DNA of 64,000 nucleotides from Tomocerus qinae. Its lineage: Eukaryota > Arthropoda > Collembola > Entomobryomorpha > Tomoceridae. The notes below the pieces were generated by a model, which ran no database searches, was not told the DNA's origin, and saw only the letters and a program-made list of their open reading frames with translations. Below, piece by piece: positions 14,464 through 57,610 of the stretch (position 1 is the stretch's first letter; each line of letters starts with the position of its first letter). The translations under genes and the position numbers were made by a program. Location: positions 47,616,001 through 47,680,000 of the forward strand of contig CM034546.1 in assembly GCA_020055645.1 (NCBI GenBank). Direction: 5' to 3'.

Positions 14464-16044
14464 TTAAATTTGTATGTAACAATCTCCTGCAATTTGAATG
14501 GCAATATCATCCAAAGATCGTCCTTGTGACAACTGAGCATAAAAAACCAAAAATTTACAATTTAGTAAAACCTCAGCGTTTATAAACATTTAAATTCTTG
14601 TAATAACTAATATAAGTACAAACCTTGCCCTCGAGAAATTCTGCCCCTTTGGAGACTGCATTATTAAAAATAATTTTCATTGACGAAAATGATGGACGCA
14701 TCTCAGGATTCAAGTGCCAACAACGCACCATAATATCATATCTAAAATAATTGATTGACATTTAAATAATTTATGCAAAGCAGATAACATCAGACGCAAA
14801 CGTCTTTTGACTTCGATTAATATTTAAATAGCTAAATCATTCACATTTCGTCAGAGGCTAATTTTGGCTTAAAATTTCTGAGTCCGTTTTCCAGCTCTTG
14901 TACAAATTCCATGGTGGGAGCCATTCCGGGATAGGGAATATCGCCCAAAGAAAATATTTCCCACAAAGTGATTCCATAAGCCCACACGTCCGACTTGGTT
15001 GAAAATGTATTTGTCTGTAGACTTTCAATTGCCAGCCAACGCCAGGGCAAAGGGTCTTTTGCCGTTTTGATATATTCTGTGTAATTATAAGTACGTCGAC
15101 TCAGACCAAAATCCGTCACTTTTGCATTTCCCTCTGATGTTAGCAGAATGTTCCTCGTAGCCAAATCAGAATGGATAACCTGTATTTAGTGTTATATATT
15201 TATTTTCAAATATAATTTATGGGCTTTTTTTTAAATAATACTCCAACATTTTTTTGTCCAAGGTATTCCATAGCACTGGCAATCTGTTCTGACCACATCA
15301 ATAAACTTTTGGAGTTGCACAGCGACTGCTTAAATTCGTCTGCAGTTTGCTTCCTATTTCAAAAAGGAAATGATATCATTAGGGTGCCATTTTAAATAAA
15401 ATTATGTGAAAAACCTTTATGTGAAAAACAGAATTGTAAAAAATTAATTCGGTACCAGTTAATTATTATTGGTGTTCTTGTTTTACTTGCATCGGCACAA
15501 TCTTCTACCTTAGGATTTAAGATTGGATTATTTGAAAACGAAGTCTTGTTTTTCCTTAGAAATGATTCCAAAGACCCAAATTCACAAAATTCTATAGCCA
15601 CATAGAGGATTCCTATAAATTTTCAAATTTAAAAAACGGTTTAATGGCATAAAATGAGGGAAAATTGAGTGTACCATAGTATAACATTACGGGCATTTCT
15701 TATTATAGGTACCTGAAGTTATTTCGTCTCGGTATACTCCCAAAAGGGTGACTAAATGTTCATGTGGTCCAATATACATCAGTATTTTTGCTTCAGAGAC
15801 GAGAGCTTTCAAGGGTCCAGTGCCACGGTCACTTCGGACGGTTTTAAATGCAGCTGTTTTATCTACACCGTGTAACAGTCCTTTGAACACTTCTCCAAAT
15901 TCCCCTTTTCCAAGTATACAATGTTTATCTAGAAAAACATGACAACATTTAATAATGTATTTAGTTTATTGGCCGCTAAAATTGTTTCTATTATAAACAT
16001 AATATTAGAGGAAGCATTCGTAACATATAATCTTTATATTATAA

Positions 16045-16110
16045 TCAGCACATGTGGCTTGCGTGGTAGAGTGTCAATCTCTATGGCGAGTGGTCACAGC
16101 TTCGATGCTT
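16045..16110 (+). repeat. tRNA-like (SINE-head-like) segment in copy A intron 2
   Basis: GTGGCTTGCGTGGTAGAGTG resembles a polymerase III A box and, 35 bp on, GCTTCGATGC resembles a B box. A tRNA-derived SINE 5' end fits. No full cloverleaf could be drawn, so it is not called a tRNA gene. Confidence 0.35.
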
Positions 16111-16319
16111 GGCGATATTGGTGTTTGGATACGGTTTTTTCCACCGCTGATGTATTTAGCAGTTACGGCTGTTACTAATTATGCATCATGCAATGGTTTT
16201 CCCGCTTCTGTAACTCCGAATGGAGAAATATCTTAACATTTCTTCGTACTACTTCACGTAACATTTAAAAGAAAGTGAGATATGTTCAACTGGTGTAATT
16301 GGTTTCTAACGAAACAAAC

Positions 16320-17365
16320 CAGTGGTGTATGAGTTTTTTTTTTTTTTTATAATCGCAGAATCGATAAAATTTACGTGTATATCTATCTATATATGTACGG
16401 TTGGTAGGGTGTTCCGAAAATCAAAATGCGCATGCTCAGTTTCTCTAAACCACCGAACAATGCATAGGGGCATGTACCAACCTATCTATGTCTCTATGTA
16501 TGTGTGGTAGGAGATCCTAGGGAACCTGCATATATTACGTAACGCAAAACCCCCTCCCCAATGTTTAACGCAAATCGCAAGTGCTGACTGTAACACTTTT
16601 GGGTACCTACTCCCCCAACAACTGCACACATAATAGATGCAGGTTCATTAAAAGCTAAATGCGCATACTCATGCATTTCCTCTAAACCAACGTAATGAGT
16701 TGTTTCATAAATCATTATAACATGAAAATAACAATACTAGAAAGTAGAAATTTACTTAAGTTGATTATTGGTGATTGAGTGGAATTGATTAGCAAAGGGG
16801 ACATTTTGTAAACATGGGTTTTTCAAAATACAGGGAATTCCATAAATAAAGCTCAAGTACAGGTGATTGGGAAGTATCTATGACTACTATTTACTAATTT
16901 CGAGGTATTGTGAATTTGAAATTAAAACCTTAATATCTCTAAATTGGAGATGAATATGAATAAACGCAGAATACCACACCTCAACCAGGTTTTTCTGCGA
17001 TTTGGGAGTCCAATTTTGTCATCCTAAGACCAGTATTCTCGGAAAAGTTTTAAGTTTGCCAAAAAAAGTTAACGGCTAATTTGATAGTCGAACTCACCAG
17101 ATGACTCGACTGCTACCATATATCGACAAACTTATTTAGCATTTTTTAATAGACCTGGTGTTATTGTGTTACTTTTACTGTTCCCAAGATTTCTTTCTAC
17201 CAGTTTGAACACCTTTTATGTAGAATTGAATAACAGTTTTGATTAACATAATAACTTAAGGGAAATACCGATTATTTTTTTGGAATTGTTTTTATTGTTG
17301 TGATGGGTGGCCTACTGAAATTCTCTTGAGAGCTAGGTTTGCCCCGCTTAGCTTGGTTCACTAGT
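16320..17365 (+). repeat. Dispersed repeat, copy 1 (partner at 51055-52017)
   Basis: Shares long blocks with 51055-52017 in the same orientation: ATAATCGCAGA, CTAGGGAACCTGCATATATT, GCAAAACCCCCTCCC, CAACACTTTTGGGTA-like, and the 3' part GTGATGGGTGGCCT with GCTAGGTTTGCCCC. It sits inside intron 2 of receptor copy A, which explains most of that intron's excess length. No coding domain recognised. It may be a non-autonomous element of about 1 kb. Confidence 0.6.
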
Positions 17366-20195
17366 ATTTTACATTTTCCTTGTGAATTAAGTGAATTTTA
17401 TTTAATATCCCAATCTTGACTAAGCAAATGAACAAAGCATGAAATAGCTAGCTCACCAATCAAGAAAGAGTTCTTTTTGATTTCATAATTTGGGTCAAAC
17501 AAAAAATTCAGTGGATCATCCTTCGTCTCTTCATCTTCGTTTATTTTCCTTCCGTTTAGTAGATTAATAATTTCTCTCAATTCCCGCTGTCTTCTCATCT
17601 AGAACAAATAGAATAAATTTAATATTAATAGTTTAAGTGTTCAATATAGATAGTATATAGTAGTATTTTGTAATATGGCTGACACAATTTTTTATTTCTA
17701 CTAGATTTCTTAATTGTAAAACTAATCTTAAAAATTCATCAACATTATAATGAGAACCTAATGACATGCATTTCAACCTTCCCTATACGTATTTGTATGT
17801 CTATAAATGTAAAAACGGGAATAAAACTGAATAAATAAAGATGATTTAATAATGTTTTACCTTTTCTCGGGTTAAATAGATGATAATGAGTACGGAGATT
17901 AGCAAAAGTGATGCAACAACGATGAAATAGTGTATTTGGTTAGAACTATGAAGTTCAGGACATATAACATCTAATTCTAGTCCATGCAAACTATTCCTTT
18001 GGTGTTGTACATCCTTTTCTTTGTTGAAAATACAGGTCATGCTGTCCACATCCAAGCGGTCAGAAAAATCTCGCCAGTGGTTTTGAAATCCCAAACAGTC
18101 ATAGCATGGAAAAGGATTACTTGCTAAGGAAAAGTTGGTTGTAGGGTTATTTCTCAAAGCACGAAGGAAGGACAAGGATGTTAATTGATTGCCTGAAAAA
18201 TTAACTAAATTTAAATGCCGAGAAATAGTTGAAGCGTAGTGATCTGTCAATTTTGTGATGTTATTTCTAGAAAGATCAAGTTCTAGTTTCCAATCTTTAG
18301 GATTCAATCTCGTGGGGGTTAAATGATCCAGTAGTCTGTCAATATTATTAATTTGAGGGAGTCCGAATTTTGACATATTGAGACTACTGTTAGAACAGTC
18401 AATCAAAATTGTAGCATCAATATGACCTTCCCAACATTCACAACCGACAGGACATTCAGGACGTATCTGGCACCTAAAATCTTTACAGGTAAATTCATTT
18501 ACCTCAATTTTGTAGGTGTTAGAACTAAAGTTTTTCAGATAATATACTGTTTGGCAATCACAATTCAGTGGGATGTAGGTATTTAAATTTATTTTCACGT
18601 GTCGTTGGGAAACATCAACCAGATGGACCAACGCATCAGTCATATCAATATGTTCAATACGATTTCTCAACAGGTTCACTGTAATATTTTTTTGTGTAAA
18701 TGAAAAGTCTTTCGCTGACAGATGAGTGAATTCATTTCCTTCTAAATTAAGGTGTGTCAAACATTTTAAAGAGATTCGCCAATCATCATAAGTTGAACTA
18801 ATTTTGTTATTTTTTAGAATGAGCTCTTGCAGTTATTTTTGAATGGAGATAGTTGGATTCCTGTATTTAGAGAAAGATTGTTATACGATAGATCTAACCA
18901 TGTAAGATTTGGGAGAAATGAAAATGCTTTATCTTCCATTGAATTTATTCGATTCCTTGATAGATCAATTTTGATTCGTTGTTCTGACTTCCCTGAAAAA
19001 TCAGATATTTTGTTCCCGCGCAGTTTAAGGTCCACAATTTGTTCAAAGTTAGGATAATGCAATTCAGCCATGTCATTTCTACTCACATCAAGAATTCTAA
19101 GCTTGGGAAATTCGGAGAAATAATTTTTTGGAAATGTTTTAATCTTATTTTTGGACAAATGCAATTCAGTAAGATTTGAAACATTTTTTAATTTTGGAAA
19201 TTCTACCAAACCTAAAGCTTCGAGGCGTAGCATCCAGAGATTCGGCAAGTTTCGCAGCTCTAGTATTGGGACATTGGTTATGGTAAGCAATGGCGTAGTT
19301 GGGAAAAGAAAAGAACTAACAACTATTAACTGTTCCAATTTAATCAAGTTTGCTAATTGAGGAAATTCCTTGATGGCGACATTCATTAATGAAAGTTCCT
19401 TCAGTTCAATTAGATTTGCGAATGCAGTTGGTTCGAGATTGATCAAAGGGTTACTATCTAAATTAAGAACCTGAAGATTCTTAAGATTAGAAAGCGATTC
19501 AAATTTCAAAGAAGATATGATGTTATCTCCCAGATTAAGGATAGTTAGCGAGTCTGGGAAAACTGCGTTCCCAATAGCACTCACTCCATTATACGTGATA
19601 GATATGTCGGTCAGATTCCGGTTAGTTGCAAATGCATCACTTGGAATATTTTCAAGTTCATTGTTTAGAAGAATTAACCTTTCGAGTTTGTCAAAGTTGG
19701 ACAAATTAGGAAACTTCAATGACCTAGTGCCGTGAATACCCAAAGTCTTTAAATTTGATCCATCTATGTTTAGCTTCTGGAAGAACGCAAAGAAATCGTC
19801 GCTGATCATTTCCACATTACAAGATTCAAACCGCAATACTGTTATACGAAAACCATCTTTGTTTAAGTGAACACCTTCAAATATCTCCCAACTAAATTTT
19901 ACTGATTCATCATAGCAGTCTACAATTAACTGTGCTTGTTGCTGTTTATTTAGCAATGGCCGAATGTACAGTTTTACATTATTAGGGCAATGGACTTTCC
20001 ACCCATATTCAACTCCACTGCAACGGCAATTTCCTGAAAAATTCACGAAATCACAGTCAAAGCTAATCCCAACGCACAAATTAACTGTTGTGATAATAAT
20101 CACAAAAAACAACAATAACAGTTTCATCATTTTAAATTGAAAGAAATTGCACAGCCTTTTTGTTATAATAATGCCCACCACAAGACCACCCTTTA

Positions 20196-20204
20196 CTTTT
20201 ATAA
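20196..20204 (-). promoter_or_regulatory. TATA box of receptor copy A
   Basis: TTATAAAAG on the minus strand, 66 bp before the ATG at 20130. The same box occurs at the same distance in copies B, C and E. It supports the ATG at the signal peptide as the start and argues for a 5' UTR of about 35-45 nt. Confidence 0.6.
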
Positions 20205-20209
20205 CGCCT

Positions 20210-23239: not shown

Positions 23240-26200
23240 TTAAATTGTTGTGTAACAATCTCCTGCTAATTGAATGGCAATATCATCCAAAGATACTTCT
23301 TGTGATAACTGAGCAGAGAATTACCAAAAAATAATGATTTAGTAAAACCTCAGTATTTATAAGCATTTAAATTCTTGTAAAAACGAAATTATAATTACAA
23401 ACCTTTCCCTCCAGACATTCTGCCCCGTTGGAGAATGCATAATTAAAAGTAATTTTCATCGAGGAAAATGATGGACGCATCTCAGGATGCAAATGCCAAC
23501 AACGCACCATAATATCATATCTAAAATAATAGATTGTCATTTAACATTTAAATAACTTATGACAAGCGGGTATAATCAGACACTTTTAATTTTAATATTT
23601 ATTTATTTTAATATTTAAATAACTAAATCAATCACATTTCCTCAGAGGCCAATTTGGGCTTAAAATTTCTGAGTCCGTTTTCCAACTCTTGGGCAAATTC
23701 CATAGTGTGAGCCATTCCGGGGTAGGGAATATCGCCCAAAGAAAATATTTCCCACAAAGTGATTCCATAAGCCCACATGTCTGACTTGGTTGAAAAAGTA
23801 TTTGTCTGTAGACTTTCAATTGCCAGCCAACGCCAGGGCAAAGGGTCTTTTGCAGTTTTGATATATTCTGTGTAATTATAAGTACGTCGACTCAGACCAA
23901 AATCCGTCACTTTGGCATTTCCCTCTGATGTTAGCAGAACGTTCCTCGTAGCCAAATCGGAATGGATAACCTGCATAATAGTATAACTTACATATTATTT
24001 CATGCAGATATATAATTTATACGGTTTGTTTTATTTTATAATTAATAATCCAACATTTTTTTGTCCAAGGTATTCCATAGCAATGGCAATCTGTTCTGAC
24101 CACATCAATAAACTTTTGATGCTGCACAGCGACTGCTTAAATTCGTCTGCAGTTTGCTTCCTATTTCAAAAAGCAAATAATATCTTTCAGGGTACCATTC
24201 GTAAAAAAAGTTTGTTTAAAGATTTATGGTAATTGTAAAATTTTCATTCTGTACCAGGTAATTACTATTGGTGTGCTTGGTTTACTTGCATCAGCATAAT
24301 CTTCTACCTTTGGATTTAAGATAGGATTGTTTGAAAACGACGTCTTGTTTTTCCTTAGAAATGATTCCAAAGATCCAAATTCACAAAATTCTATAGCCAC
24401 GTAGAGGATTCCTATAAATTGTCAAATGTGCACAATAAATTCAACAAAATAAGTTCAATTTTTTCCATCCTGAAACTTCGTTGAGATTTTTTTCAGTTGA
24501 AATAAATTAATTTTCAAATAAAATATTTTGGTGGCAGTAAATGAGTGAAAATAGAGTGTACCATGGTATAACTTTATGGGAATTTCTTATTATAGGTACC
24601 TGAAGCTATTTCGTCTCGGTATACCCCTAAAAGCGTGACCAAATGTTCATGTGGTCCAATATACATCAGTATTTTTACTTCAGAGACGAGAGCTTTCAAC
24701 GGTCCTGTGCCACGGTCACTTCGGACGGTTTTAAATGCAACTGTTTTATCTACACCGTGTAACAGTCCTTTGAACACTTCTCCAAATTCTCCTTTTCCAA
24801 GTATAGAATGTTTATCTGAATAAATATGACAACATTTAATAATTTACTTAGTTTATTTGCTGGTAAAACTGTTCATAAATACTTAAGGCTATCTCGACGA
24901 TGCGCAGAACAGCGATACCACTTTCCCCGTATGGAATAAAAAGTTTTAATATTTTTTAAAAATATGTACCACATATTTTTTGAGAGCTTATTGTGGCATT
25001 TTTTTCCAAAAAGTCCCCCAGTTTTTCAAAACTAAATAGTTTTTGGAGTGGGAGAAACACATGTGAATTTGATAAACCCGTCTCGTTCTCTGTTGTATGA
25101 AACATTAAAAGAAATAGGGCCACAATAAGCCCTCCAGAATTTTATGCTTTATTTTTTGAGGTACTACATTTTGAAATCCGTTGCCCCAAATTTTGATTTT
25201 CCGTTTTTCCTACACCCGTCCTCACGGTACCACTAGATTGTGCCATTTTTTACTACGAGGAGTAAGGCGCCAATCTAAAATTAGGCCACATTCTACCGCT
25301 TGGGTTTGTTTATTACCAAACACCCTGTAGTAAAATTACACATTTCTGCTCGTCGCTAAGCAACCGTATCATCGAGGTAGCCTTAATATAAAAGGAAGTG
25401 TATGTACTATGAACGCCAGAACGCCACTTTTCTTTTCTGAATATTATATCCCCAAAATAAAAAGATTGAAAGATAAGAAGACAATGAAAGCCCTCGCTCG
25501 ACTGGGCTCACCGAGGTATATGCGTACCTATTGAAAGAGTGCACAGTGGGTCTACTCTATAAAAAAGTGGACATAACAACGGCGCAGAGTAATAAGTAAT
25601 GAGTAGATGAGTAGGGACTATGCGATGGTTGAAGAGCATGAATTGTAGATTGGCATGCATTGTAGAGTGGCACACAAAAAAATAAAGCACAAAACACTCA
25701 AAATTTAAACAATTAAATTTATTTTTAAATCAATATTTTTAAAAATTATAAAGAGAATTTTTTCTAAAAACGAAAACTCACACAAAAACATTTTCGCAAA
25801 AAAGTCAAATGATGTCGTATAAATGCGAATTGTTTGGACCAATTCACACATAAAATGATGTTTTCGTATCAATGGGAATTGTTTAGACCAATTCGCACAA
25901 TTTTAAGTTACCCATAATTTATTTTTTGTAGGAGTTTGCCGAAACAATTCGTATTTTTGCGAAATTATCATTTTTTGTACGAATTTCGCTTTATAATTTT
26001 TTTAAAATATTGATTTAAAAATAGTTGGTTAATTTTTGAGTGTTTTGTGCTTTATTTATTTGTGTGCCACTTTATATTGTTTAATTCATGCACTTCAACG
26101 TTCAACCGTCTCCTAGTCCCTACTCATTGCTCATTACACTGCGCCGTTGTGTCCACTTTTTTATAGAGTAGACCCACTGTGCACTCTTTCAATAGGTACG

Positions 26201-29041
26201 CATATACCTCGGTGAGCCCAGTCGAGCGAGGGCTTTCATTGTCTTTTTATCTTTCAATCTTTTTGCTTGCGAGGTCTATTCAGAAAAGAAAAGTGGCGTT
26301 CATAGTTACAAATAATATTTTGCATTTTCCTTGTGCACTAAGTGCATTTTACTGATTACAAATATCTTAAACTTGTTTTAAGCAAATGAACAAAGCATGA
26401 AATAACCAGCTCACCAATCAAGAAAGAATTCTTTTTGATTTCATAGTTTGGGTCGAACAAAAAATTCAATGGATCATCCTTCGTTTCTTCATCTTTGTTA
26501 ATTTTCCTTCCGTTTAGTAGATTAATAATTTCCTTCAATTCACGTTGTCTTCTCATCTAAAACAGATAAAATAAATTTAAATCTTAAGTTTATAAAATTC
26601 ATTAACATTTTAATGAGAACCTTCCATATTATATGTGTATGCCTATTTTAAATATAAAAACGGGAATAAAACTAAAATAAGGAAGATTAAGATTTAATAT
26701 TGTGTTTTACCCTTTCTCGTGTTAAATAAATGATAATGAGCACGGATATCAGCAGGAGTGACACAACAATGACGAAATAGTGTATTTGGTTAGAAATAGC
26801 AAGTTTAGGACATATAACTCCTAATTCGAGTGCATGTAAACTATTCTGTTTGTGTTTTACATCGCTTTCATTGCTGAAAATACAAGTCATGTTGTCCACA
26901 TCCAAGCGGTCAGAAAAATCTCGCCAGTGCTTTTGAAATCCCAAACAGTCATAGCATGGAAAAGGATTATTTGCTAAGGAAAAGTTGGTTGTAGGGTTAT
27001 TTTTTAAAGCACGAAGGAAGGACAAGGATGTTAATTGATTGCCTGAAAGATCAACTATATTTAAATGCCGAGAAATTGTTGAAGCGTAGCGATCGGTCAA
27101 TTCTGTGATATTATTTGCAGAAAGATCAAGGACCAGTTTCCAATCTTTACGATTCAATCTCGTTGGGGTTAAATGATCCAGTAGACTGTCAATGTTATTA
27201 ATTTGAGGAAGTCCAAATTTAGACATATTGAGACTTCTGTTGGAACAGTCAATCAAAATTGTAGAATCTGCTGGACGTTGCCAACATTCACAACCGAAAG
27301 GACATTGAAGATGTATCTGGCACCGGAAATCTGTATCTTTAATTGCAGTCAGAAATGAACTCTGAAATGAATTCCTCGGTTTTGCACAGATGAGATCATT
27401 TCGTATAATTTTGTAGGTGTTAGAACGAAAATTTTTCAGATATATTGTTTGGCAATCACAATTCAGGCGAACGTGTAATAGATGTATTTTCACATTACGT
27501 TGGGAATCATTAACGAGATGAACCAATGCATCAGTCATATCAATATGCCTAATAGAATTTCCTGACAGGATCACTGTAATATTTTTTTGTGTAAACGAAA
27601 AGTCTTTCGCTGAAAGATGAGTCAATCTATTGTATTCTAAATAAAGATCAGTCAAATATTTTAAAGAGATTCGCCAGTCGTCATAAATTGAACTAATTTC
27701 GTTATTTTTTAGGAAGAGATTCTGCAGTTTTAAGTTATTTTTGAAAGGGGATTGGTTAGTGCCAATGTTTGGAACGTTAGACTGTTGGAATCCTTTATTT
27801 AAAGAAATTTTGTTATTCGAAAGATCTAGCCATGTAAGATTTGGGAGTAATACAAATGTTTTATCTTCGATTGAATTTATTCGATTAGTTGATAGATCAA
27901 TTTTGACCAGTTCTTCCGACTTTCCGGAAAAATGAGTTATTCTGTTGCCACTCAAGTTAAGGTCTACAATATTTTCAAGGCTAGGGGAATCCAATTCAGC
28001 TATTTCATTTTCACTCACATCAAGAATTCTAAGCTTGGGAAACTCAGCGAAAGTTTTTGGAAAAATTTTAATTTTATTCCTTGACAAATTCAATTCAGTG
28101 AGATTTGAAAGATTTTTTAATTTTGGATATTCTGCCAAGTCTAAATTTTTGAGGTGTACTTTCCAGAGATTTGGCAAATTTGTCAGTTCTATTGTGAACG
28201 ATGTGTCTGTGAAAGAATCCTCTTGATGGTCAACTATTAACTGTTCCAATTTAATCAAGTTTGCTAATTGAGGAAATTCATTAATGTCTACGTTGTTTAA
28301 TGAAAGTTCCTTCAGTTCAATTAGATTTGTGAATGCATTTGGATCGAGATTGGTCAAAGGGTTACTATCTAAATTGAGAACCTGAAGATTCTTAAGATTA
28401 GCAAGCGATTCAAATTTCAAAGAAGATATGATGTTATCTCCTAGATTAAGGCTAGTTAGCGTGTCTGGGAAAAGAGCGTTTCCAATCGCACTCACTTTAT
28501 TATTCTGGAAAGATATTTCCGTCAGATTTTGATTATTTGCAAATACATCTCTTGGAATAGTTTCAAGCCCATTGTAGTTAAGAAAAAGTGATTCGAGTCT
28601 CTTTAAATTTGTCAAATTTGGAAACTTCAATAACTTGGTACCATGAATACCCAATTTCTTTAAATTTGATCCATCTATGTTTAGCTTCTGGAAAAACGCA
28701 AGGAAACTGTCGCTGATTAGTTCCAGATTACAATATTGAAACCACAATACTGTTATACGAAAACCGTTTAGATCAACACCTTCAACTATGTCCCAGCTAA
28801 ATTTTACTGCTTCATTGTGACAGTGTACAAATAACTCTGCTTGTTGCTGTTCTTGTTGCAATGGCCGAATGTGCAGTTTAACATTATTAGGGCATTGAAT
28901 TTTCCACCCATATTCAACTCCATTTCCATTGCAACGGCAATTTCCCGAATCATTCACGAAATCACAGTCAAAGTTAATCCCAACGCACAAATTAACTGTT
29001 GTGATAATAATCGCCAACAACAACAATATCAGTTTCAACAT
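23240..29041 (-). CDS. Receptor copy B: intact Toll-type LRR receptor tyrosine kinase
   Basis: Exons: 29041-26711, 26556-26415, 24815-24600, 24411-24255, 24160-24055, 23970-23636, 23520-23403, 23308-23240; lengths sum to 1158 codons, no internal stop. Start is the ATG at 29041; the longer frame upstream begins with TTG and is not used. Residues 1-20 signal peptide; cysteine N-flank; about 15 LRRs; C-flank LNCDCQ; N-flank CPFGCECW and ILIDCSN; two LRRs; C-flank FPCYDC; membrane helix about 755-773; juxtamembrane with DPNYEI. Kinase: loop GKGEFGEV 831-838, Lys853 in VAFK, SEVKIL helix C, HSDLATRN at 987-994 (Ser where Arg is normal; Asp989 kept), DFG 1007-1009, tyrosines 1015, 1017, 1020, AIES in place of APES, DMWAYGITLWE, RCWHLNPEMRPSF. 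The C-tail is only 22 residues. Predicted type I membrane receptor phosphorylating tyrosine. Intron 2 holds two transposons. The exon 5 donor (AAT|GTTGGA) is weak but conserved. Confidence 0.88.
24887..25382. mobile_element. piggyBac-like MITE with TTAA target duplication
   Basis: Ends GGCTATCTCGACGATG and, mirrored at the right, GGCTACCTCGATGATAC. TTAA lies on both sides (24883-24886, 25383-25386). About 496 bp, no coding capacity. It is inserted in intron 2 of receptor copy B. Confidence 0.75.
25410..26306. mobile_element. Foldback element, about 0.9 kb, almost entirely inverted repeat
   Basis: The left arm begins CTATGAACGCC and the right arm ends GGCGTTCATAG. Long mirrored blocks follow: CACTTTTCTTTTCTGAATA, CTCGCTCGACTGGGCTCACC, GAGGTATATGCGTACCTATT, GCACAGTGGGTCTACTCTAT, and an inner AT-rich part with GCGAATTGTTT and its mirror. 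Each arm is about 430 bp with a very short loop near 25855. A transcript of the host intron would fold into a long hairpin. It lies in intron 2 of receptor copy B. Confidence 0.8.
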
Positions 29042-30480: not shown

Positions 30481-30795
30481 TATTTGAACCAATTTTTTTT
30501 ATTTTAGTCATGTCAAGTCATGAATGATTTGACAGAAATAAAAAATCTATTTGTTTTTCAGTTCATGTTTACTGAAACTACTGATCATTTCTCGGAACCC
30601 TATGAACGGAGCACTAAAGTCCGAGCCCGGCGGCATAGGCATAGGCATTGCAAATGAGGCACTCTGTTCTTAGGTACTTTATGCACGTAAAGTTTTCTAA
30701 TAATTTACTAAATTTTTGAAAACAAAAAAATGAAAAACCAAACTCTAGAACCTAAAGCCTTAATATTAACCTATTAATATTAAGCCTATTAACCT

Positions 30796-33700: not shown

Positions 33701-34339
33701 TTAGCAAGCGATTCAAATTTCAAAGAAGATATGTTGTTACGTCCAAGTTTAAGGCTAGTTAGCCCGTCTGGGAAAAGAGCATTTCCAATAGCACCGAATG
33801 GATTATTCTGGAAAGATATTTCAGTCAGATTCCGGTTATTTGCAAATGCATCACTTGGAATATTTTCAAGTCCGTTTGCGTTAAGAAAAAGTGACTCGAG
33901 CCTCTTTAAATTGGTCAAATTTGGAAACTCCAATAACTGAGTGCCATCAATACTCAAAGTCTTTAAATTTGATCCATCTATGTTAAGCTTCTTTCTGAAA
34001 GAACTCAAATAAATCGTCGCTGCGTAGTTCCACATCACAATTTTGAAACCCCAATCTGGTTATGGAAAAACCATCTTTATTTAGATCAAAAGCCTCACCT
34101 ATGTCCGACCAAAATTTTACTGTTTCACCATAACAGTTTACAAATAACTCTGCTTGTTGCTGTTTGTTGCATGGCACAATTATCATGTCAATATTATTAT
34201 TATTTTTAAGGCATCGTATTACCCAACTATATTCACCTGGGCTGCAACTGCAATTTCTTGGAACATCACAGTCAAAGTTAGTCCCAACGCACAAATTAAC
34301 TGTCGTGAGAATAATCACGAAAAACAACAAAATCAACAT
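30796..34339 (-). pseudogene. Receptor copy C: two frameshifts and missing kinase C-lobe
   Basis: ATG at 34339 with signal peptide. Exon 1 runs to 32027 with donor AAAAG|GTAAAG. The LRR frame is broken twice: a 4-bp duplication (TTCT) near 33990-33994 shifts from the frame ending 33983 to the one ending 33316, and a 10-bp deletion near 33392-33393 (CAATTCAGTG absent compared with E at 56641-56660) shifts back. The last third (33391-32027) is open through both cysteine clusters and the membrane helix. Exons 2 (31807-31666), 3 (31500-31285) and 4 (31092-30936) are open. Exon 5 starts at 30841 but ends abruptly near 30796; exons 6-8 (HSD, DFG, C-lobe) are absent and the sequence passes into the minisatellite at 29792-30480. 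A functional kinase is not possible. Confidence 0.88.
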
Positions 34340-39240: not shown

Positions 39241-39257
39241 TATTTGACCGTTTTAAC

Positions 39258-42911: not shown

Positions 42912-43436
<525 letters not shown>

Positions 43437-43463
43437 CTATTTCAAAAAGCAAATAATATATAT

Positions 43464-43640
43464 GCTGCAAGAGGATAGGCTATTTCCTGCACCAAACGAA
43501 AATTGGAGATAGGCTTATTCCTGTACCAAACAAAAAATGGATTTTAGCTTTTTCCTGTGCCAAACAAAAAATGGATTTAGGCTTTTTCCTGTACCAATCT
43601 GAAAGTGGTTACAGGCTTATTCTATCCTTAAGGGACGATA
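43464..43640. repeat. Inverted-repeat arm 1 with internal 38-bp repeats
   Basis: Starts GCTGCAAGAGGATAGGCTAT and ends CCTTAAGGGACGATAT. Inside, four units of about 38-40 bp each carry CCTGTACCAAACAAAAAATG or TTTCCTGCACCAAACG. An inverted copy is at 50755-50935 and a shorter direct copy at 52756-52882. It lies in intron 4 of receptor remnant D. Confidence 0.75.
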
Positions 43641-43949
43641 TGTCTATGCAAAACATGATTTATAATTATTTGTCCACGAAGGGATAATTGTGAAGCAAAC
43701 TTAAGCACAAAAAAGATCCTCAGGTTATTGTAAAACTTAAAAAAATATTCGAAAGTTAACCAAAATGACTCTGAGTGGATTTATATCAATGCTAACAAAC
43801 TATAAAATCTTAGAATATTCGGGATACTTTTCTTAGTACTGATTATTTGGCTTATTTAATTGTTTGATTTAATCTAGTACAAGTACTAATAGCCATTATT
43901 TATTTTTACCATTAAAGTCAGAATTAATTTTTAAGGTATAGCATCAATA

Positions 43950-44066
43950 ACAGTTGTGTTGACAAAAAAGATAATTGCTGTTGACAAAAAATAAAACGGT
44001 GTTGACAAAAGGTGTTTTCGGTTTTTTTTTGCCCTGTTGACATTTTAGTGTTGACAAATTGGGGGT
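43950..44066. repeat. Irregular GTTGACAAA repeats
   Basis: GTTGACAAA or GTTGACATT recurs six or seven times at 20-30 bp spacing just before the retrotransposon. It is inside the insertion in intron 4 of remnant D and belongs to no gene I can see. Confidence 0.5.
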
Positions 44067-44195
44067 AGGTCCTTTTAGGGTACCATTTGTAATAAAAGTT
44101 AGAGCGCGCGGGAGGTTTGAACGTAAACACATGTTGAGTTTGGATCCTGAATTTTACAAAATTTTAAGCTAATTTTATCTATCTACCCTCACTCA

Positions 44196-44885
44196 ATGCA
44201 CAGTTTAACTAGTGTCGCAGCTACATTTGAGAACCCTCCGTTGAAAAAAATAAAAAGTGCTAGTATGTCAGGCTCATCTAAGGAAGGAGGAGACTCCGAA
44301 ATAAAAACACTTTTGATGGCTATGGAAGGCCGGCTCACTTCGAAGATTGACAATCTAGAAACCACTTTCGCAACCAACTTACAACAAACAATCTCGGAAA
44401 GTAAAAGAGCACTAACCAAAGTTCAACAGACCCTAAAAGAAAACAATGTCGTTATCCAGGGGGCCCCAGAAGAGGAGAAGGAGACATTGGAAAAATTGTG
44501 TTCAATATTCGACGACGTGGCCAATACGTTGGAGATCAAAGGTATTTTGGTGGACAAGATTTTTCGTATGGGGAAGCCGCGCCCAGGGATCAATAGGCCC
44601 ATTCTGGTGAAACTAGTGCGTTTTATCGACAAGCAAAGAATGATGTGGAACAGAGGAAAGTTAAGGGATCGGGGCATTTTCATCAATGATGACCTTTCAG
44701 TAGAAGAAAGAAAACAGCAAGGGGAACTCCGGAAAAAGGCTGCGGATATCAAAAAAATACGTCCAGGCATCGCATTTAGAATCTCGGGTTCAACACTAGT
44801 AATCAGGGAAAACGGGGTGGTCACAGATGTCTTTGAAACGAAGGAGGATGGTTCCATCTCTAAAAAGCGACCGCGAACTTCGTGA
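44196..44885 (+). CDS. LINE ORF1 protein (coiled coil plus RNA-binding-like domain)
   Basis: 229 codons from ATG at 44196, intact. Residues about 30-80 form heptads (MEGRLTSKIDNLETTFATNL) suggesting a coiled coil; residues 85-215 (NNVVIQGAPEEEKETL.. FRMGKPRPGINRPILVKL.. ) have the layout of the RNA-binding and C-terminal domain found in ORF1 proteins of many LINEs. The role is nucleic-acid chaperone in the retrotransposition particle. Basic tail (KKRPRTS). No CCHC knuckle seen. Confidence 0.7.
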   Translation: MHSLTSVAATFENPPLKKIKSASMSGSSKEGGDSEIKTLLMAMEGRLTSKIDNLETTFATNLQQTISESKRALTKVQQTLKENNVVIQGAPEEEKETLEKLCSIFDDVANTLEIKGILVDKIFRMGKPRPGINRPILVKLVRFIDKQRMMWNRGKLRDRGIFINDDLSVEERKQQGELRKKAADIKKIRPGIAFRISGSTLVIRENGVVTDVFETKEDGSISKKRPRTS

Positions 44886-44939
44886 GGATTCGGGCCCAGG
44901 AATAGTCAAACACGTTCAAATCTTGTAATAATTAAATTT

Positions 44940-45875
44940 AACTTTATTACGTGGAATATGGAAGGTATGAAAAAATTAAACTCTTTAAATAGTGATGAAA
45001 AATGGGAGCTAATGCAAACATCTGCGATAGGATTATGTGGAACTTGGGACGTAGTCCCCTCTAAATTACCTAGCTATTTAAGTCATTTTAATTGTATTAG
45101 TCAGCCGGCAACAAGAGAACATAACAAAGGTAGAGCTATAGGAGGTATCTCGCTATTACTAAATAAAAATTTGACTAAATTAATAGAAATAATTGACATT
45201 GATCAATCTTGAATCTTATGTAAAGTGGAGTGTTTAGCCTCAAAAAAAATTTTATTATTGGGAATTGTATACTTACATCAAGATGATTGTCACAATAATA
45301 ATTTAATTAAATTAAGTAATTTAATAGAGAATGTCTATTTGTGTCATTCTCTTCCAGTAATCATCGGTGGAGACTTTAACGGCCGTGTCGGTTTGTATGA
45401 CATCTCAGTGGACGAGTTACATTGCAAAGTTGGTAATCATACTAGATTATCCTGTGATCGGATGGTAAATTTTTATGGGAGCAACCTTATTCAGTTCATT
45501 GAGGACCACAGCTTGGTAATTGCCAATGGGAGATCAAAAAGTGATTCAAAAGGGGAGTTCACTTTTATTAATAAAAATGGCAAAAGTGTCATTGAATATA
45601 TGTTATTAAATTATAAAGCGTGTGAATCGTTTGTAGATTTTAAGGTATTAAATTTCATTGAGTCATGTCATTTTCCTATAAAACTCCAGCTAGGGGACAT
45701 ACAAAATTCATGCATTTGGGGGGAGAGCACTCTGAGTTGGAAACCGGAATCAGCTGATCAGTATCGAAATATTGTGATGGAAAAAGATATATCGAATTAC
45801 CAAGAATTAAAAAACGCAATTCAGGACGCTGCAAAAAAATCAAAAATGGTGAAAAAGAAGAAAATTAGTACCTGA
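44940..45875 (+). pseudogene. LINE apurinic-type endonuclease domain, broken
   Basis: An EEP-fold endonuclease that nicks target DNA. Visible motifs: ITWNMEGM at the start, GGDFNGRVG in the middle, GEFTFINKNGKSVIEYML near the end. The frame carries TGA at 45210-45212. It also needs a one-base shift at about 45862-45870, where TGA at 45873 ends this frame and the RT frame takes over (PWFDVECRK). Several catalytic positions differ from family usage: CGTWD where ETW is normal, IEY for IDY, SCHFP for SDH. Not functional as it stands. Confidence 0.75.
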
Positions 45876-45891
45876 TGCACCATGGTTTGAC

Positions 45892-48060
45892 GTGGAATGC
45901 AGAAAATTACTCTGGAAATGTCGTGCATTGAATATAATTGCAAAAAAGCGGAGTTGGGCTCCAGAAGCGAGAGTGAATTATTATAATGCAAAGGCCGAAT
46001 ACACTAAAACACGAAAGTTAAAACAAAAAGACTTCTGGGATAAGAAAAGGAAAGAATTGAAAAATGCTAAGAAGCCACAGTTCTGGAAAGCCGTGAACAT
46101 GTTCAGAAAAGTGTCAACAATTCAGAATAACATTAAGGAAGAGAAATGGATCGATTATTATAAAAATGTGCTGCCGAGTAGGTCAACGGAAAGTACACTA
46201 TTCTATGATGCAAGACATGAAATTCAAACCTCAGAATTCAGGCTGGAAGAGTTAACAGTGGCCATAAGAAATCTCCCAACCAAAAAAGCGGCGGGACCAG
46301 ACCAAATAGCATATGAATTCATCAAGTGCTTACCAGAGGATTGTGTGGTGAAAATTTTGGATATTTTTACTAATATTCTAGACTCGGAAGATCCTCCTAA
46401 GGACTGGGCGGAGTCAATCACCGTTATGCTGTTCAAGAAGGGAGACCCAGAAGATCCGGCCAATTATCGCCCAATAGCCCTTATGAACTGTATAGCCAAA
46501 CTCTTCTCACAAATAATATGTACCAGATTACAGAAATGGTCAGAAATTACAGGTGTTCTCCCTGAAGCGCAAGGTGGCTTTAGGAAAGCCAGGGGTTGCG
46601 AAGATCAAATCTTTACCTTGAACAGTGCAGTACAGATTGAGACTAGAAATTCGAAAAAGGTCTATGCACTCTTCATAGATTTTGCCCGTGCTTTTCCCAG
46701 CATTAGTCACAAGATACTATGGCCTCGTCTTTTTCACCTGGGCATCTCCGGAAAAATCATCAGAATTTTGGAGAAAATTTATTCACAAGCGTCGACACAG
46801 ATCCGATTGCCAGAAAAAGTAACTTCACCGATAGACATCACGGAGGGCCTGATGCAGGGGTGCTGCCTCTCGCCCCTCAGCCTGTATATTCACGACATTG
46901 AGGAGGAACTACAGAGAAAAGGGTGGAGAGGGGTGCCGATTAACGACAAATTCATGCTGCATATTCTACTTTATGCCGACGACACAATTGTAGTGGCCGA
47001 TAACAGATTAAGCCTGCAGAGGAAAATTAGGACACTTGAAATATACTTCCGTAAATTAGAACTCAAAGTAAACATCACCAAAACTAAAGTGGTCGTATTT
47101 AGAAGAGGGGGACCTTTGGAAAAGCGTCTAAATTTTGCCTATAATGGAAAACCTCTGGAAATAGTCAACGAATATGTATACTTGGGGGTGCCCTTCTCGT
47201 CATCAGGGAAATTTGCCAAGGCAGTTGCTTACTTCAAAAAGAAAGCTGCTATTGCTCAAAATGGGGTGTGCTCCGTCTTTGCTAAGGGAAGGCTTGCATC
47301 GTTAGACTCCAAAGTTCGGCTTTTCGACTCAGTTGCTCTCTCTACATTGCTGTATTGCTGTCACATTTGGGGTTTGGAATATGTGGAGAAAATAGAAACA
47401 TGTCAGACAAAATTTATACGTAAGGTATTGGGAGTAAAAGTCACTGTGCCTAAATGCGTGGTAAGATTAGAAACAAGCAGAACTAAGCTATGGGTGTTGA
47501 TCGCAAAGCGATTGCTTTGCTTCCTACAAAAATTATTTACAATGGATGATAATAGGTACGCTAAAAAATGCTTCGTGGTACTTAATAAATTGGCGAATAC
47601 TGATGCTGGTGATAATTACAACTGGGTAAGCCAATGTAAAACGTTCACTGAGAAAATCGGCCTAGGAGATATTTGGGAGGATGACACGGGTAAACTTATA
47701 GCTAATGATTATGTGGAAATATGTAGTACACTAGTAAATAAAAGTAAGGAGGAGGATCTAATATCATTAGCAGGTTATGACAATTACAAATATTTTGAAC
47801 ATTATGATATTGTGAGACTTAATAGCCCGGAATCCCATAAACTGTCCTTTTGGGATGGCAGGCTATTGAGTCAGTTGAGGCTGAATTGTGACATGTTGTC
47901 ATATAAGAGTAAAATATTTATGTTTAAAGATTGTTTAGTTTGTGACTTATGTAATTTACAGCGACCAAATACCTTCTTCCATTTGCTGACTGAGTGTTGT
48001 GCACACAATAGAAAGGAAATTCAGAGTCTGATACCTAAAGATGTTCATTGTATGTATTAA
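45892..48060 (+). CDS. LINE reverse transcriptase with C-terminal zinc finger
   Basis: 722 codons uninterrupted in their own frame. RT blocks: KKAAGPDQIAYEFIK, ANYRPIALMNCIAKL, FIDFARAFPSISH (catalytic Asp in FIDF at about 46680), LMQGCCLSPLSL, and LLYADDTIVVA (catalytic YADD at 46972-46983). The tail has a CDLC..H..C finger (CDLCNLQRPNTFFHLLTEC) at about 47945-48000, common in LINE ORF2 ends. The upstream endonuclease is out of frame, so no complete ORF2 protein is made. A-run and LTR absent. Confidence 0.85.
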   Translation: MECRKLLWKCRALNIIAKKRSWAPEARVNYYNAKAEYTKTRKLKQKDFWDKKRKELKNAKKPQFWKAVNMFRKVSTIQNNIKEEKWIDYYKNVLPSRSTESTLFYDARHEIQTSEFRLEELTVAIRNLPTKKAAGPDQIAYEFIKCLPEDCVVKILDIFTNILDSEDPPKDWAESITVMLFKKGDPEDPANYRPIALMNCIAKLFSQIICTRLQKWSEITGVLPEAQGGFRKARGCEDQIFTLNSAVQIETRNSKKVYALFIDFARAFPSISHKILWPRLFHLGISGKIIRILEKIYSQASTQIRLPEKVTSPIDITEGLMQGCCLSPLSLYIHDIEEELQRKGWRGVPINDKFMLHILLYADDTIVVADNRLSLQRKIRTLEIYFRKLELKVNITKTKVVVFRRGGPLEKRLNFAYNGKPLEIVNEYVYLGVPFSSSGKFAKAVAYFKKKAAIAQNGVCSVFAKGRLASLDSKVRLFDSVALSTLLYCCHIWGLEYVEKIETCQTKFIRKVLGVKVTVPKCVVRLETSRTKLWVLIAKRLLCFLQKLFTMDDNRYAKKCFVVLNKLANTDAGDNYNWVSQCKTFTEKIGLGDIWEDDTGKLIANDYVEICSTLVNKSKEEDLISLAGYDNYKYFEHYDIVRLNSPESHKLSFWDGRLLSQLRLNCDMLSYKSKIFMFKDCLVCDLCNLQRPNTFFHLLTECCAHNRKEIQSLIPKDVHCMY

Positions 48061-48549
48061 CTATTTGATAGTAGTAAGATAGAAAATATAAAAATGTTAT
48101 TGGCTTATGTTAAGACTGCTCTCAATAGGATAAATTTTATTAATATCTTAGACCAAAATGAAACGTAATTAATTTTGACAAGCTCCAAATATTTGTTTAA
48201 ATTAATTAATGCAGTAACAATTTGTGATGCATAAGATATTGTGTAGGGGGATGGGTGCTTAAGGCTGTATGTGCGGAGTGTAATAGCTTAACCAAAAGGT
48301 TGGTTAAGTTCTGATTCACCGGACGCCAAGTGGCGGAGGTATTCGGGTAGTAGAGGGATAGGTTCCCTTGAAGGGATCAGTTGGTCGGCATATAGTTAGT
48401 GTACTTATTTCTACAATATCTTTATAATTATAAATTGTAATTTTTCTTTATATTCTATGGGCCAAGGCTCGTCGAGAATAAAATCAATATTCATTCATTC
48501 ATTGTAATAAAAGTTTGTTAAAAGCCTTATTAGAGTTTAATTTAATTTG

Positions 48550-48888
48550 GTACCGGTTCTTGTTTTACTAGCATCTGCACAATCTTCTACCTTCGGATTT
48601 AAGATTGGATTGTCTGAAAATGAAGTCTCTATTCTATCTAGTCTCTGTTTTTCCTTAGAAATGATTCCAAGGACCCAAATTCACAAAATTCTATAGCCAC
48701 ATAGAGGATTTCTATAAATTTTCAAATTAAAAAAAATGGTTTAATGGCATAGGAAATGAGTGAAAATTGAGTGTACCATGGTATAACATTACGGGCATGT
48801 CTTATTATAGGTACCTGTAGTTATTTCGTCTCGGTATACTCCTAAGAGGGTGACTAAATGTTCATGTGGTCCAATAAACATCAGTATT
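48550..48888 (-). pseudogene. Receptor copy D, 5' part: exon 4 and partial exon 3
   Basis: Exon 4 starts at 48711 (acceptor TTTATAG, then AAATCC instead of GAATCC). It carries an insertion of about 17 bp near 48630 and a deletion near its donor (48555). Exon 3 runs from 48814 to about 48888, where sequence homology stops in the middle of helix C. The glycine-loop half of exon 3, exon 2 and the LRR exon are missing. It continues 42912-43436 across the retrotransposon. Confidence 0.8.
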
Positions 48889-52755: not shown

Positions 52756-52882
52756 GCTGCAAGAGGATAAAGGCTATTTCCTGCACCAAACGTTCCAAAG
52801 TGGATTTAGGCTTTTTCCTCAAAAAATGGGTATACCAATCTGAAAGTGGATAGAGGCTTTTTCCATCCTTAAGGGACGATAT
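52756..52882. repeat. Inverted-repeat arm 3, shortened copy
   Basis: GCTGCAAGAGGATAAAGGCT to CCTTAAGGGACGATAT, same orientation as 43464-43640 but with two internal units missing. A solo arm with no mirror partner to its right in this window. Confidence 0.7.
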
Positions 52883-53432: not shown

Positions 53433-56400
53433 TTAAATTTGTGTGTAACAATCTAATGCAATTTGCAGGGCAATATCATCCAAACATAGTCCTTGTGACA
53501 ACTGAGAACAGAATCACCAAAAATTTATGATTTAGTAAAACCTCTGCGTTTGTAAACATTTAAAGTCTTGTAAAAACGAAATTATAAGTACAAACCTTGC
53601 CCTCAAGACATTCTGCCCCGTTGGAGAATGCATAATGAAAAATAATTTTCAATGACGAAAATGATGGACGCATCTCAGGATGCAAATGCCAACAACGCAC
53701 CATAATATCATATCTAAAACAATAGATTGACATTTAAATAATTTATGTAAAGCAAGTATAATCAGATCATACGTCTTTTGATTTCGATTAATATCTAAAT
53801 AGCTAAATTAATCACATTTTGTCAGAGGCCAATTTGGGCTTAAAATTTTTGAGTCCGTTTTCCAGCTCTTGGATAAATTCCAAGGTGGGAGCCATTCCAG
53901 GGTAGGGAATATCGCCCAAAGAAAATATTTCCCACAAAGTGATTCCATAAGCCCACACGTCCGACTTGGTTGAAAAAGTATTTGACTGAAGACTTTCAAT
54001 TGCCAGCCAACGCCAGGGTAAAGGGTCTTTTGCCGTTTTGATATATTCTGTGTAATTATAAGTACGTCGACTCAGACCAAAATCCGACACTTTTGCATTG
54101 CCTTCTGACGTTAGCAGAACGTTCCTCGTAGCCAAATCGGAATGGATAACCTGTATAATAGTATTATTTACATATTATATTATTTCAAATGTAATTTATA
54201 GGCTTTTTATTGTTTAATTAATAATCCAACATTTTTTTGTCCTAGGTATTCCATAGCAATGGCAATCTGTTCTGACCACATCAATAAACTTTTGATGTTG
54301 CACAGCGACTGCTTAAATTCGTCTGCAGTTTGCTTCCTGTTTCAAAAAGGAAATGATATCATTTATTGTGCCATTCTTAATAAAAGTTTGTCAAAAGGTT
54401 TATGAGAATTGTAAAAATTTAATTCGGTACCAGTTAATTACTATTGGGGTTCTTGTTTTACTTGCATCAGCATAATCTTCTACCTTCGGATTTAAAATTG
54501 GATTGTTAGAAAACGACGTCTTGTTTTTCCTTAGAAATGATTCCAAAGATCCAAATTCACAAAATTCTATAGCGACGTAGAGGATTCCTAGAAAGTGTCA
54601 AATGTGTAGGTACAATGAATTCAACAAAAGAAGTTCAATTGCATTCTGAAACTTCTTTGAGATTTATTTCAGTTGAAATAAAGTAATTTTATACTGAAAT
54701 ATTTCAGTGGCAGTAAATGAGTGAAAATTGCGTGTACAATAGTATAACTTTATGGACATGTCCTATTATAGGTACCTGAAGTTATTTCGTCTCGGTATAC
54801 TCCTAAAAGCGTGACCAAATGTTCATGTGGTCCAATATACATCAGTATTTTTGCTTCAGAGACGAGGGCTTTCAAGGGTCCAGTGCCACGGTCACTTCGG
54901 ACGGTTTTAAATGCAGCTGTTTTATCTAAACCGTGTAACAGTCCTTTGAACACTTCTCCAAATTCCCCTTTTCCAAGTATAGACTGTTTATCTAGAAAAA
55001 TATGACAACATTTAATAATTTACTTAGTTTATTTGCCGCTAAAACTGTTTATAAATACTTAATATGAAATGAGTATGAATGAAACAAAAATTTTCCATTT
55101 TCGTGGTGAATTAAGTGCAATTTATAGATTGCAAATATCTTAAACTTGTTTTAAGCAAATGAACAAAGCATGAAATAACTAGCTCACCAATCAAGAAAGA
55201 ATTCTTTTTGATTTCATAATTTGGGTCGAACAAAAAATTCAGTGGATCATCCTTCGTTTCTTCATCTTCGTTAATTTTTCTTCCGTTTAGTAGATTAATA
55301 ATTTCTCTCAATTCACGCTGTCTTCTCATCTAAAACAGTTAAAATAAATTTAAATCTTAAGTTTGTAAAATTCATTAACATTTTAATGAGAACCTTCCAT
55401 ATAATATGTCGTGTATTCCTATTATTAATATAAAAACGGGAATAAAACTAAATAATTAATAAAGATTAAAATTTAATACTACGTTTTACCTTTTCCCGTG
55501 TTAAATAAATGATAATGAGCACGGATATCAACAAGAGTGATGCAACAATGACGAAATAGTGTATTTGGTTAGAACTAGCAAGTTCAGGACATATAACTCC
55601 TAATTCGAGTGCATGTAAACTATTCCGTTGGTGTTGTACATCCTTTTCTTTGCTGAAAATACAAGTCATGTTGTCCACATCCAAGCGGTCAGAAAATTCT
55701 CGCCAGTGGTTTTGAAATCCCAAGCAGTCATAGCATGGAAAAGGATTATTTGCTAAGGAAAAAGTGGTTGTAGGGTTATTTTTTAAAGCACGAAGGAAGG
55801 ACAAGGATGTTAATTGATTGCCTGAAAGATCAACTAAATTTAAATGCCGAGAAATTGTTGAAGCGTAGCGATCTGTTAATTCTGTGATATTATTTCCAGA
55901 AAGATCAAGTTCCAGTTTCCAATCTTTACGATTCAATCTCGTGGGGGTTAAATGATCCAGTAGACTGTCAATGTTATCAATTTGAGGAAGTCCAAATTTA
56001 GACATGTTGAGACTTCTGTTAGAACAGTCAATCAAAATTGTAGAATCCACCGGACGTTGCCAGCATTCACAATTGAAAGGACATTCAGGATGTATTTGGC
56101 ACCTGAAATCTTTATCTTTAACTTCGGTCAGAATTGATCCTTTTAAATTGCTCGGATTTTCACAGGTAGGATTACCCAATGCAATTTTGTAGGTGTTAGA
56201 AGTAAAGTTTTTTAGATATATTGATTGGCAATCACAATTCAGAAGAATGTTTAATAAAAGTATATTCACATCACGTTGGGAATCATTAACGAGATAAACC
56301 AATGCATCAGTCATATCAATATTCCTAATAGGATTTTCCAACAGGTTCACTGTAATATGTTTTTGTGTAAATGAAAAGTCTTTCGCAGACAGATGAGTGA

Positions 56401-57610
56401 ATTCATTTCCTTTTAAATCAAGGTTTGTCAAATGTTTTAAAGAGATTCGCCAATCATCATAAATTGAACTAATTTTGTTAAATTGTAGAAGGAGCTCTTG
56501 CAGTTGTAAGTTATTTTTGAAGGGAGATTGTTGAATTCTTGTAAATAGAGAAAGATTGTTATACGATAGATCTAACCGTTCTAGTTTGGGAAACTCAGCA
56601 AAATAATTTTTTGGAAATGTTTTAATCTTATTTGCCGACAAATTCAATTCAGTGAGATTTGAAAGATTTTTTAAATTTGGAAATTCTACCAAGTCTAGTC
56701 TAATGAGGTATAGTTTCCCCAGATTTGGCATGTTTCTCAAATCGAGTATATTTGGCAATGGCTTAGAGTGGAAATGCCGTAAATGGCGTACAACTTTTAA
56801 CTGTTTTATTTTAATCAAGTTTGCTAATTGAGGAAATTCCTTGATGGCGACGTTCAGTAATGAAAGTTCCTTCAGTTCAATTAGATTTGTGAATGCATTT
56901 GGTTCGAGATTGGTCAAAGGGTTATTATCTAAATTAAGAACCTGAAGATTCTTAAGATTAGCAAGCGATTCAAATGTCAACGACGATATTTTGTTATTTT
57001 TAAGATTAAGGCTGATTAGAGTGTCTGGGAAAGGAGCGTTTCCAATAGCACTCACTCCATTATACATGATAGATACTTCGGTCAGATTCCGGTTATTTGC
57101 AAATGCATCACTTGGAATATTTTCAAGTTTATTGTCTAAAAGAGATAATCTTTCGAGTCTCTCAAAATTGGAAAAATTAGGAAACTTCATTAACTTAGTG
57201 CCTTGAATACCCAAAGTCTTTAAATTTAATTCATCTACGTTTAGCTTCTGGAAGAACGCAAAGCTACCGTCGCTGATTATTTCCAAATTACAAGAATCAA
57301 ACTTCAATTGTGTTATGCGAAAACCATCTTTGTTTAGATCAACACCTTCAAATATTTTCCAGCTAAATCTTACTGATCCATAGCAGTCTACAACTACATG
57401 TGCTTGTTGCTGTTCGTTTGGCAATGGGAAAATGAGCATATTAGCATCAGTTGTAGGACAATTAATTTTCCGCAAATTAAAATGACCAATAAATTCAGTA
57501 CAACGGCAATTTTCTGAACTATTCACGAAATCACATTCAGAGTAAATCCCAACGCACAAATCAATTGTCGTGATAATAATCACAAAAAACAACAAAATCA
57601 ATTTCAACAT
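53433..57610 (-). CDS. Receptor copy E: intact Toll-type LRR receptor tyrosine kinase, short LRR array
   Basis: Exons: 57610-55490, 55329-55188, 54991-54776, 54587-54431, 54336-54231, 54150-53816, 53713-53596, 53501-53433; together 1088 codons, all open, with exons 2-8 exactly the same lengths as in A and B. Start ATG at 57610 in front of the signal peptide. The domain order is as in copy B. Compared with B, about 70 residues (three LRRs) are missing in frame near 56580: FPKL is followed directly by ERLDLSYNNLS. The N-terminal 100 residues differ much more from B than does the kinase. Kinase marks: [38 protein letters not shown]. All introns are short (intron 2 about 0.2 kb), which makes this the cleanest copy. 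The ligand is unknown. The architecture call is firm. Confidence 0.9.

Follow-up and report, generated by a model that had tools for sequence, protein, structure and literature searches.

Predicted chimeric receptors with a Toll-type ectodomain and a PVR-like tyrosine kinase in the collembolan Tomocerus qinae

The window analyzed here is a 64,000-nucleotide stretch of the Tomocerus qinae genome (contig CM034546.1, hereafter C1, positions 47,616,001-47,680,000). Its minus strand contains four Toll-type ectodomains (copies A, B, C and E) and five sets of receptor tyrosine kinase (RTK) exons (copies A-E). Copies B and E are predicted to be spliced into proteins of 1157 and 1087 amino acids, respectively, with no internal stops. 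Both have the same order of domains: a signal peptide, leucine-rich repeats (LRRs), LRRCT, LRRNT, LRR, a second cysteine cluster and a transmembrane segment (TM), joined in phase 0 to seven tyrosine-kinase exons. An earlier examination of the letters alone (the sequence-only reading) had proposed this joining of one LRR exon to seven kinase exons, and the open frames of B and E bear it out. The exon boundaries were set by eye from reading frames and motifs, and the GT-AG ends found at all 14 introns are partly a condition of this placement. Each protein has two strongly hydrophobic segments, one N-terminal and one just ahead of the join. The signal peptide, the single TM and a kinase with its catalytic residues present, in which the HRD arginine is replaced, are hallmarks of an RTK. 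From these sequence features and those described below, it is very probable that the genes encode chimeric single-pass receptors that originated from Toll and PVR-like parts and join the ectodomain in phase 0 to juxtamembrane and kinase exons.

The ectodomain most closely resembles that of Toll receptors. Pfam detects LRR_8 in both proteins (5.1e-42 in B and 3.8e-30 in E), and the E ectodomain alone finds 7b1b as its best PDB match (2.4e-34) through the internal LRRCT-LRRNT block. A profile of 809 positions, built from 11 open ectodomains and searched against PDB, matches 7b1b (9.5e-65) and 4lxr (9.7e-60) first, each in a single colinear stretch (profile positions 28-637 and 32-636, respectively); the next molecule is LRIG1 (5.8e-46). 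The two top entries are labeled 'Toll-like receptor' and 'Protein toll', and we take them to be Aedes Toll5A and Drosophila Toll. The cysteines and the profile match together are those of a Toll-type LRRCT-LRRNT cluster, so the proposed Toll identity held in this search. No TIR domain is found at the cytoplasmic end, where a tyrosine kinase stands instead; the seven TIR exon matches in the genome all lie outside C1.

These LRRs might instead belong to a Trk-like or other ordinary LRR-RTK and only resemble those of Toll. Such receptors do exist, including Trk and ApLRRTK of Aplysia (available text of PMC4200351), and LRRs are generic enough that LGR4/5, LRIG1 and TLR3 match the ectodomain too. 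However, the next molecule trails the two Tolls by about 14 orders of magnitude, no LRR-RTK ranks above them in PDB, and E by itself aligns to Toll across the non-LRR cysteine blocks. No Ig domain occurs in the B and E ectodomains, in which Pfam finds LRR-type families only (E<=0.1), and the nearest relative in the genome has a TIR. Trk kinases are also absent from the best 60 of 823 PDB matches to the kinase. Membership in the Trk family was rejected on the missing Ig domain and Trk kinase match, and an ordinary LRR-RTK of any kind appears extremely improbable.

By its database matches, the cytoplasmic part is a PDGFR/VEGFR/KIT-like (PVR-like) kinase. The RTK identity given by the sequence-only reading held in the profile search, which finds PK_Tyr_Ser-Thr in both B and E with the scores given in Table 1. 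Searched against PDB, the kinase with its juxtamembrane region matches PDGFRa (1.9e-61) and then VEGFR1/2, PDGFRb, KIT, CSF1R and FLT3, and it is these matches, rather than a tree with other RTKs, that assign the subgroup. A row at 2.5e-72 that precedes them is an EGFR chain with two kinase copies, for which the scores were summed. B and E retain the G-loop, the ATP-site Lys, the alphaC Glu, the catalytic Asp, the Asn and the DFG motif.

The same arrangement recurs along C1. A search of the genome (334 Mb in 115 contigs, of which C1 accounts for 140 Mb) with the E ectodomain returned 102 exon matches. The strong matches on C1 fall into 27 places, of which 23 lie beyond the window; the 18 loci examined (L001-L018) cover 19 of these 23, and the remaining four are mostly fragments. 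A juxtamembrane exon lies downstream of the Toll ectodomain on the same strand at all 18 loci, and the catalytic exon also falls inside the examined stretch at 16 of them (the exceptions are L011 and L018). No kinase exon is listed within 12 kb of five of the 27 places, two of which belong to L018. From the kinase side, a Toll ectodomain lies no more than 12 kb upstream in each of the 17 top-ranking rows of the search with the kinase exon (one of which is E itself) and in 21 of the first 95 rows on C1, a count that leaves out later rows and those from other contigs. A chance arrangement was rejected on the juxtamembrane exon that follows the Toll ectodomain at 18 of 18 further loci, and an assembly artefact was rejected on the same recurrence; chance LRR similarity was also considered and rejected.

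The splice signals at the junction are almost invariant. Among 22 copies (L001-L018 with A, B, C and E), a GT donor follows the TM in 21, the exception being L018, whose ectodomain also has stops; a phase-0 AG precedes the juxtamembrane exon in all 22. Ectodomains other than that of B are only 49-56% identical to E, and the preservation of the junction at this level of divergence argues that it is used. Beyond the donor, exon 1 also stays open for between 3 and at least 30 residues before a stop, as would suit two adjacent genes: a kinase-less Toll-like LRR receptor that ends soon after its TM and a separate kinase gene. Against this interpretation, the read-through tails are similar only among close copies, while the donor and the acceptor phase are conserved and the pairing is repeated at C1 loci from 31.5 to 70.3 Mb. 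The kinase exons moreover lack a hydrophobic segment of their own, and Ig-type relatives carry the same juxtamembrane exon after a TM exon. The separate-genes interpretation was rejected on the conserved junction and is very unlikely.

The chimeric receptors appear to share a common origin. In a kinase tree of 26 rows, all 19 Toll-type copies group together in a clade (93/93) that excludes the Ig-type and plexin-type rows. An ectodomain tree of 23 rows has its main groups in common with the kinase tree: the window array; L012 with L010, L013, L014 and L017; and L001, L003, L004, L005, L007, L009, L015 and L016. Agreement was judged by these main groups rather than by a formal congruence test, and the two trees are most simply explained by one fusion and subsequent duplication. 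An ectodomain exon was counted as open if it ran from ATG to the TM for at least 660 codons with no stop, and 11 of 22 passed. The ratio of nonsynonymous to synonymous rates (dN/dS) is 0.27-0.62 for the ectodomain (55 pairs) and 0.09-0.21 for the kinase (three exons; four copies satisfied a no-gap rule and give six pairs). By these ratios, both parts are under purifying selection. Four pairs were also compared along the ectodomain: the first 100-residue window has a pN/pS (the ratio of the corresponding proportions) of 0.66-1.25, and in three of these pairs no other window is faster; these windows are descriptive and are not a test for positive selection.

Several observations weigh against functional chimeric receptors of a single origin. 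The HRD arginine is missing from all 26 copies that have this column, which makes full activity uncertain: the position reads HSD in 24 copies, HFD in L012 and HTD in L023, in both of which it lies at the start of the catalytic exon. L016 also lacks the first G of the G-loop (LEKGEFG). Half of the ectodomain exons (11 of 22) failed the open-frame test, including L001, which has a 710-residue frame in the genome search, and dS is near 1 in many of the pairs compared. One exon has an atypical donor, AAT|GTTGGA. Profile searches of B and E find the LRR and PK_Tyr_Ser-Thr families expected from the sequence-only reading, but the LRRCT that it also named is weak in E (0.041, under the cut-off) and absent in B. 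In the trees, the Toll-type kinase clade, with a support of 93, does not reach the starred level. The ectodomain tree is weakly rooted (63/79), its two outgroup branches are long, and its inner branching departs from that of the kinase tree, such that L001 is partnered by L003 in one tree and by L004/L015 in the other.

The lost arginine and the many broken copies, together with the fast ectodomain N-termini, could also indicate that the architecture is real and that its products are decoys or weak kinases, which would bind Toll ligands and blunt Toll signaling without signaling themselves. The low dN/dS of the kinase is hard to square with an idle domain. In addition, the arginine loss is common to Ig-type and plexin-type members, which argues that it is a family trait and not decay of the Toll branch. 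We therefore regard decoys or weak kinases as unlikely.

A possible source of the ectodomain can be seen on another contig, C2, where two places (L019 and L020) were examined. The closest ectodomain relative without a kinase is L019 (C2:14.66 Mb; best piece 1.0e-35, 52%), a Toll that shares the CPxGCEC block and the C-x2-C type of second cluster and whose TM is similar. Its TIR exon was found independently (2.2e-12 in the genome search and 8.5e-15 by Pfam). The L019 ectodomain lies in five pieces, and the four gaps between them are read as introns (at least four). This contrast with the single ectodomain exon of the chimeras suggests that their Toll piece was cDNA-derived, with intron loss as an alternative. 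Close to L019, L020 (C2:14698000-14705000) is another multi-exon gene of Toll-like type. Its tail is short and basic, and inspection of the examined stretch by eye showed no TIR.

The kinase appears from genome searches to be one branch of a PVR-like RTK family that has expanded greatly: the catalytic exon has at least 182 matches genome-wide, and nearly all listed rows are on C1. In five sampled relatives (L021 and L023-L026), exons judged by eye to be Ig-type, together with a TM, precede the same juxtamembrane exon, and L023-L026 have the identical phase-0 AG. Pfam finds Ig_3 in the two loci tested, L023 (6.6e-11) and L026 (1.3e-12); a genome search for Ig_3 scored 150 of 658 candidates, and the Ig domain is split by introns in the Ig-type RTKs that were read. 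The presence of the same phase-0 juxtamembrane exon behind Ig-type ectodomains argues that a Toll ectodomain and TM displaced Ig domains, and not that a kinase displaced TIR. Displacement of the Ig ectodomain of a PVR-like RTK family member is thus the most likely route. The exon shuffling proposed by the sequence-only reading stands as far as the joining of Toll and kinase is concerned, but its direction calls for refinement, with the Toll exon probably placed before the kinase exons of an Ig-type RTK family. On this route, an intronless and possibly cDNA-derived Toll ectodomain and TM would have landed once upstream of Ig-type RTK kinase exons, and the fused gene would then have multiplied in tandem and to further places on the same chromosome.

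Another pair of loci (L027 with L022, C1:59958000-59971600) combines a plexin-type ectodomain with exons of the same RTK family. A Sema domain (1.9e-8, in one exon), PSI (1e-5) and TIG (6.8e-9) are followed by a TM exon that is 79% identical to that of a plexin at C3:23.58 Mb. This part ends in a phase-1 donor, and phase-1 juxtamembrane and kinase exons follow. The plexin cytoplasmic region has 11 matches, every one of them on C3. From its sequence, this is a candidate plexin-RTK chimera. Met and Met-LP, in which an RTK kinase carries an ectodomain from a different receptor class (plexin-type), provide a precedent, and neither is reported from Ecdysozoa in the available text of PMC6374515.

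Within the window, the tandem array proposed from the letters is whole only in B and E; the ectodomains of A and C are broken in frame, D consists of kinase pieces alone, and no kinase exons were found in C after a partial exon 5 (Table 1). The proposed motifs are present on the minus strand, but RCWHLNP belongs to copy A, and B and E have RCWHLHP. Intron 2 is 1.6 kb in copy B versus 0.2 kb in copy E, and an inverted repeat lies in the B intron. Remnant D is interrupted by a long interspersed nuclear element (LINE).

Table 1. Positions of the receptor copies and of other features in the window
Feature	Window position	Strand	Exons or pieces	Basis or remark
Copy E exon 1: signal peptide, LRRs, LRRCT, LRRNT, LRR, second Cys cluster, TM (707 aa)	55490..57610	-	57610-55490	open frame; Toll-type by profile
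Copy E kinase exons 2-8: juxtamembrane and tyrosine kinase (380 aa)	53433..55329	-	55329-55188, 54991-54776, 54587-54431, 54336-54231, 54150-53816, 53713-53596, 53501-53433	in-frame splicing; PF07714 2.9e-73
Copy B exon 1: Toll-type ectodomain and TM (777 aa)	26711..29041	-	29041-26711	open frame, splicing, Pfam
Copy B kinase exons 2-8	23240..26556	-	26556-26415, 24815-24600, 24411-24255, 24160-24055, 23970-23636, 23520-23403, 23308-23240	in-frame splicing; PF07714 4.4e-74
Copy A ectodomain	17861..20130	-	20130-18916, 18832-17861	two pieces, frame break
Copy A kinase exons 2-8	14464..17598	-		dN/dS 0.10-0.12 vs B and E, three exons
Copy C ectodomain	32027..34336	-	34336-33992, 34002-33322, 33205-32027	frame breaks
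Copy C kinase exons 2-4 and part of 5	30787..31807	-		
Copy D, kinase-only remnant	42915..48887	-	48887-48540, 43435-42915	pieces flank LINE
LINE within remnant D	44151-48060	+		non-LTR-type retrotransposon frames; RVT_1 reverse transcriptase 8.2e-30
Inverted repeat in copy B intron 2	25459-26264			119-base arms, 98% complementary
Two overlapping frames	10818-13191	+		ionotropic-receptor-like by eye; Pfam without confirmation (best Ctr 0.058)
539-codon open frame	3572-5191	-		marginal F-box match 7.7e-4, 19.7 bits vs cut-off 20.5
Tandem array of a 36-base unit	39234-39651			open on + strand

Comparison with known receptors suggests which part of this architecture is new. The chimeric receptors share with arthropod Tolls (7b1b, 4lxr and L019) the ectodomain sequence, the order LRRCT-LRRNT-LRR-second cysteine cluster and the TM, but they have a tyrosine kinase and no TIR, and their ectodomain is a single exon rather than five pieces as in L019. 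With the PVR, PDGFR, VEGFR and KIT receptors and the Ig-type relatives (L021 and L023-L026), they share the kinase domain and the juxtamembrane exon, the phase of which is shared with L023-L026; the sampled members of this class have Ig-type ectodomains, whereas the chimeras have Toll LRRs. ApLRRTK similarly has an LRR ectodomain in place of Ig domains, one TM and a kinase of the related FGFR family. It differs in being a mollusc gene with an FGFR-class kinase and eight or nine LRRs with a GCC2_GCC3 region, a family absent from the Pfam scan of B and E, and the word 'Toll' does not occur in the available text of its description (PMC4200351). Trk also combines an LRR ectodomain with a tyrosine kinase, and its ligand class could be analogous. 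However, Trk has LRR and Ig domains and a Trk-family kinase (PMC5591008, available text), and the chimeras show neither Ig domains nor such a kinase; the same text gives Drosophila as having no full-length Trk. 'Toll' is likewise absent from the available main text of a study of the holozoan tyrosine kinome (PMC8662651), and no description of an RTK with a Toll ectodomain was found in the open-access literature, which was searched largely at the level of listings. LRR-RTKs are thus a known kind of receptor, and what is new, as judged from sequence comparison, is that a PVR-like kinase carries a true Toll ectodomain and that this combination exists in many copies.

Dimeric Spaetzle is a ligand of Toll ectodomains, and Toll receptors are normally tied to TIR/MyD88 signaling. 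The Toll ectodomains of the chimeric receptors might be bound and paired by a Spaetzle-like dimeric cystine-knot protein or by some other surface ligand. The paired kinases would then trans-phosphorylate, for example within the tyrosine-rich activation loop (RRTYNYTEY), and recruit SH2 adaptors, such that Toll-type recognition would lead to phosphotyrosine signaling instead of MyD88/NF-kB signaling. Taken alone, this step is plausible but tentative. The genome has 11 exon matches to Spaetzle-family ligand genes, with no obvious expansion. A broader and more doubtful possibility is that the PVR-like juxtamembrane/kinase cassette serves as a chassis for captured ectodomains of the Ig, Toll and plexin types, and that its Toll branch comprises diversified Spaetzle-type receptors with phosphotyrosine signaling, a convergent arthropod counterpart of Trk.

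A Toll sensor on a growth-factor-receptor kinase in a multigene family would tie Toll recognition directly to phosphotyrosine signaling. The family would also show the swapping of receptor modules inside one genome, and it would make directly testable whether Toll ligands can serve as RTK ligands.

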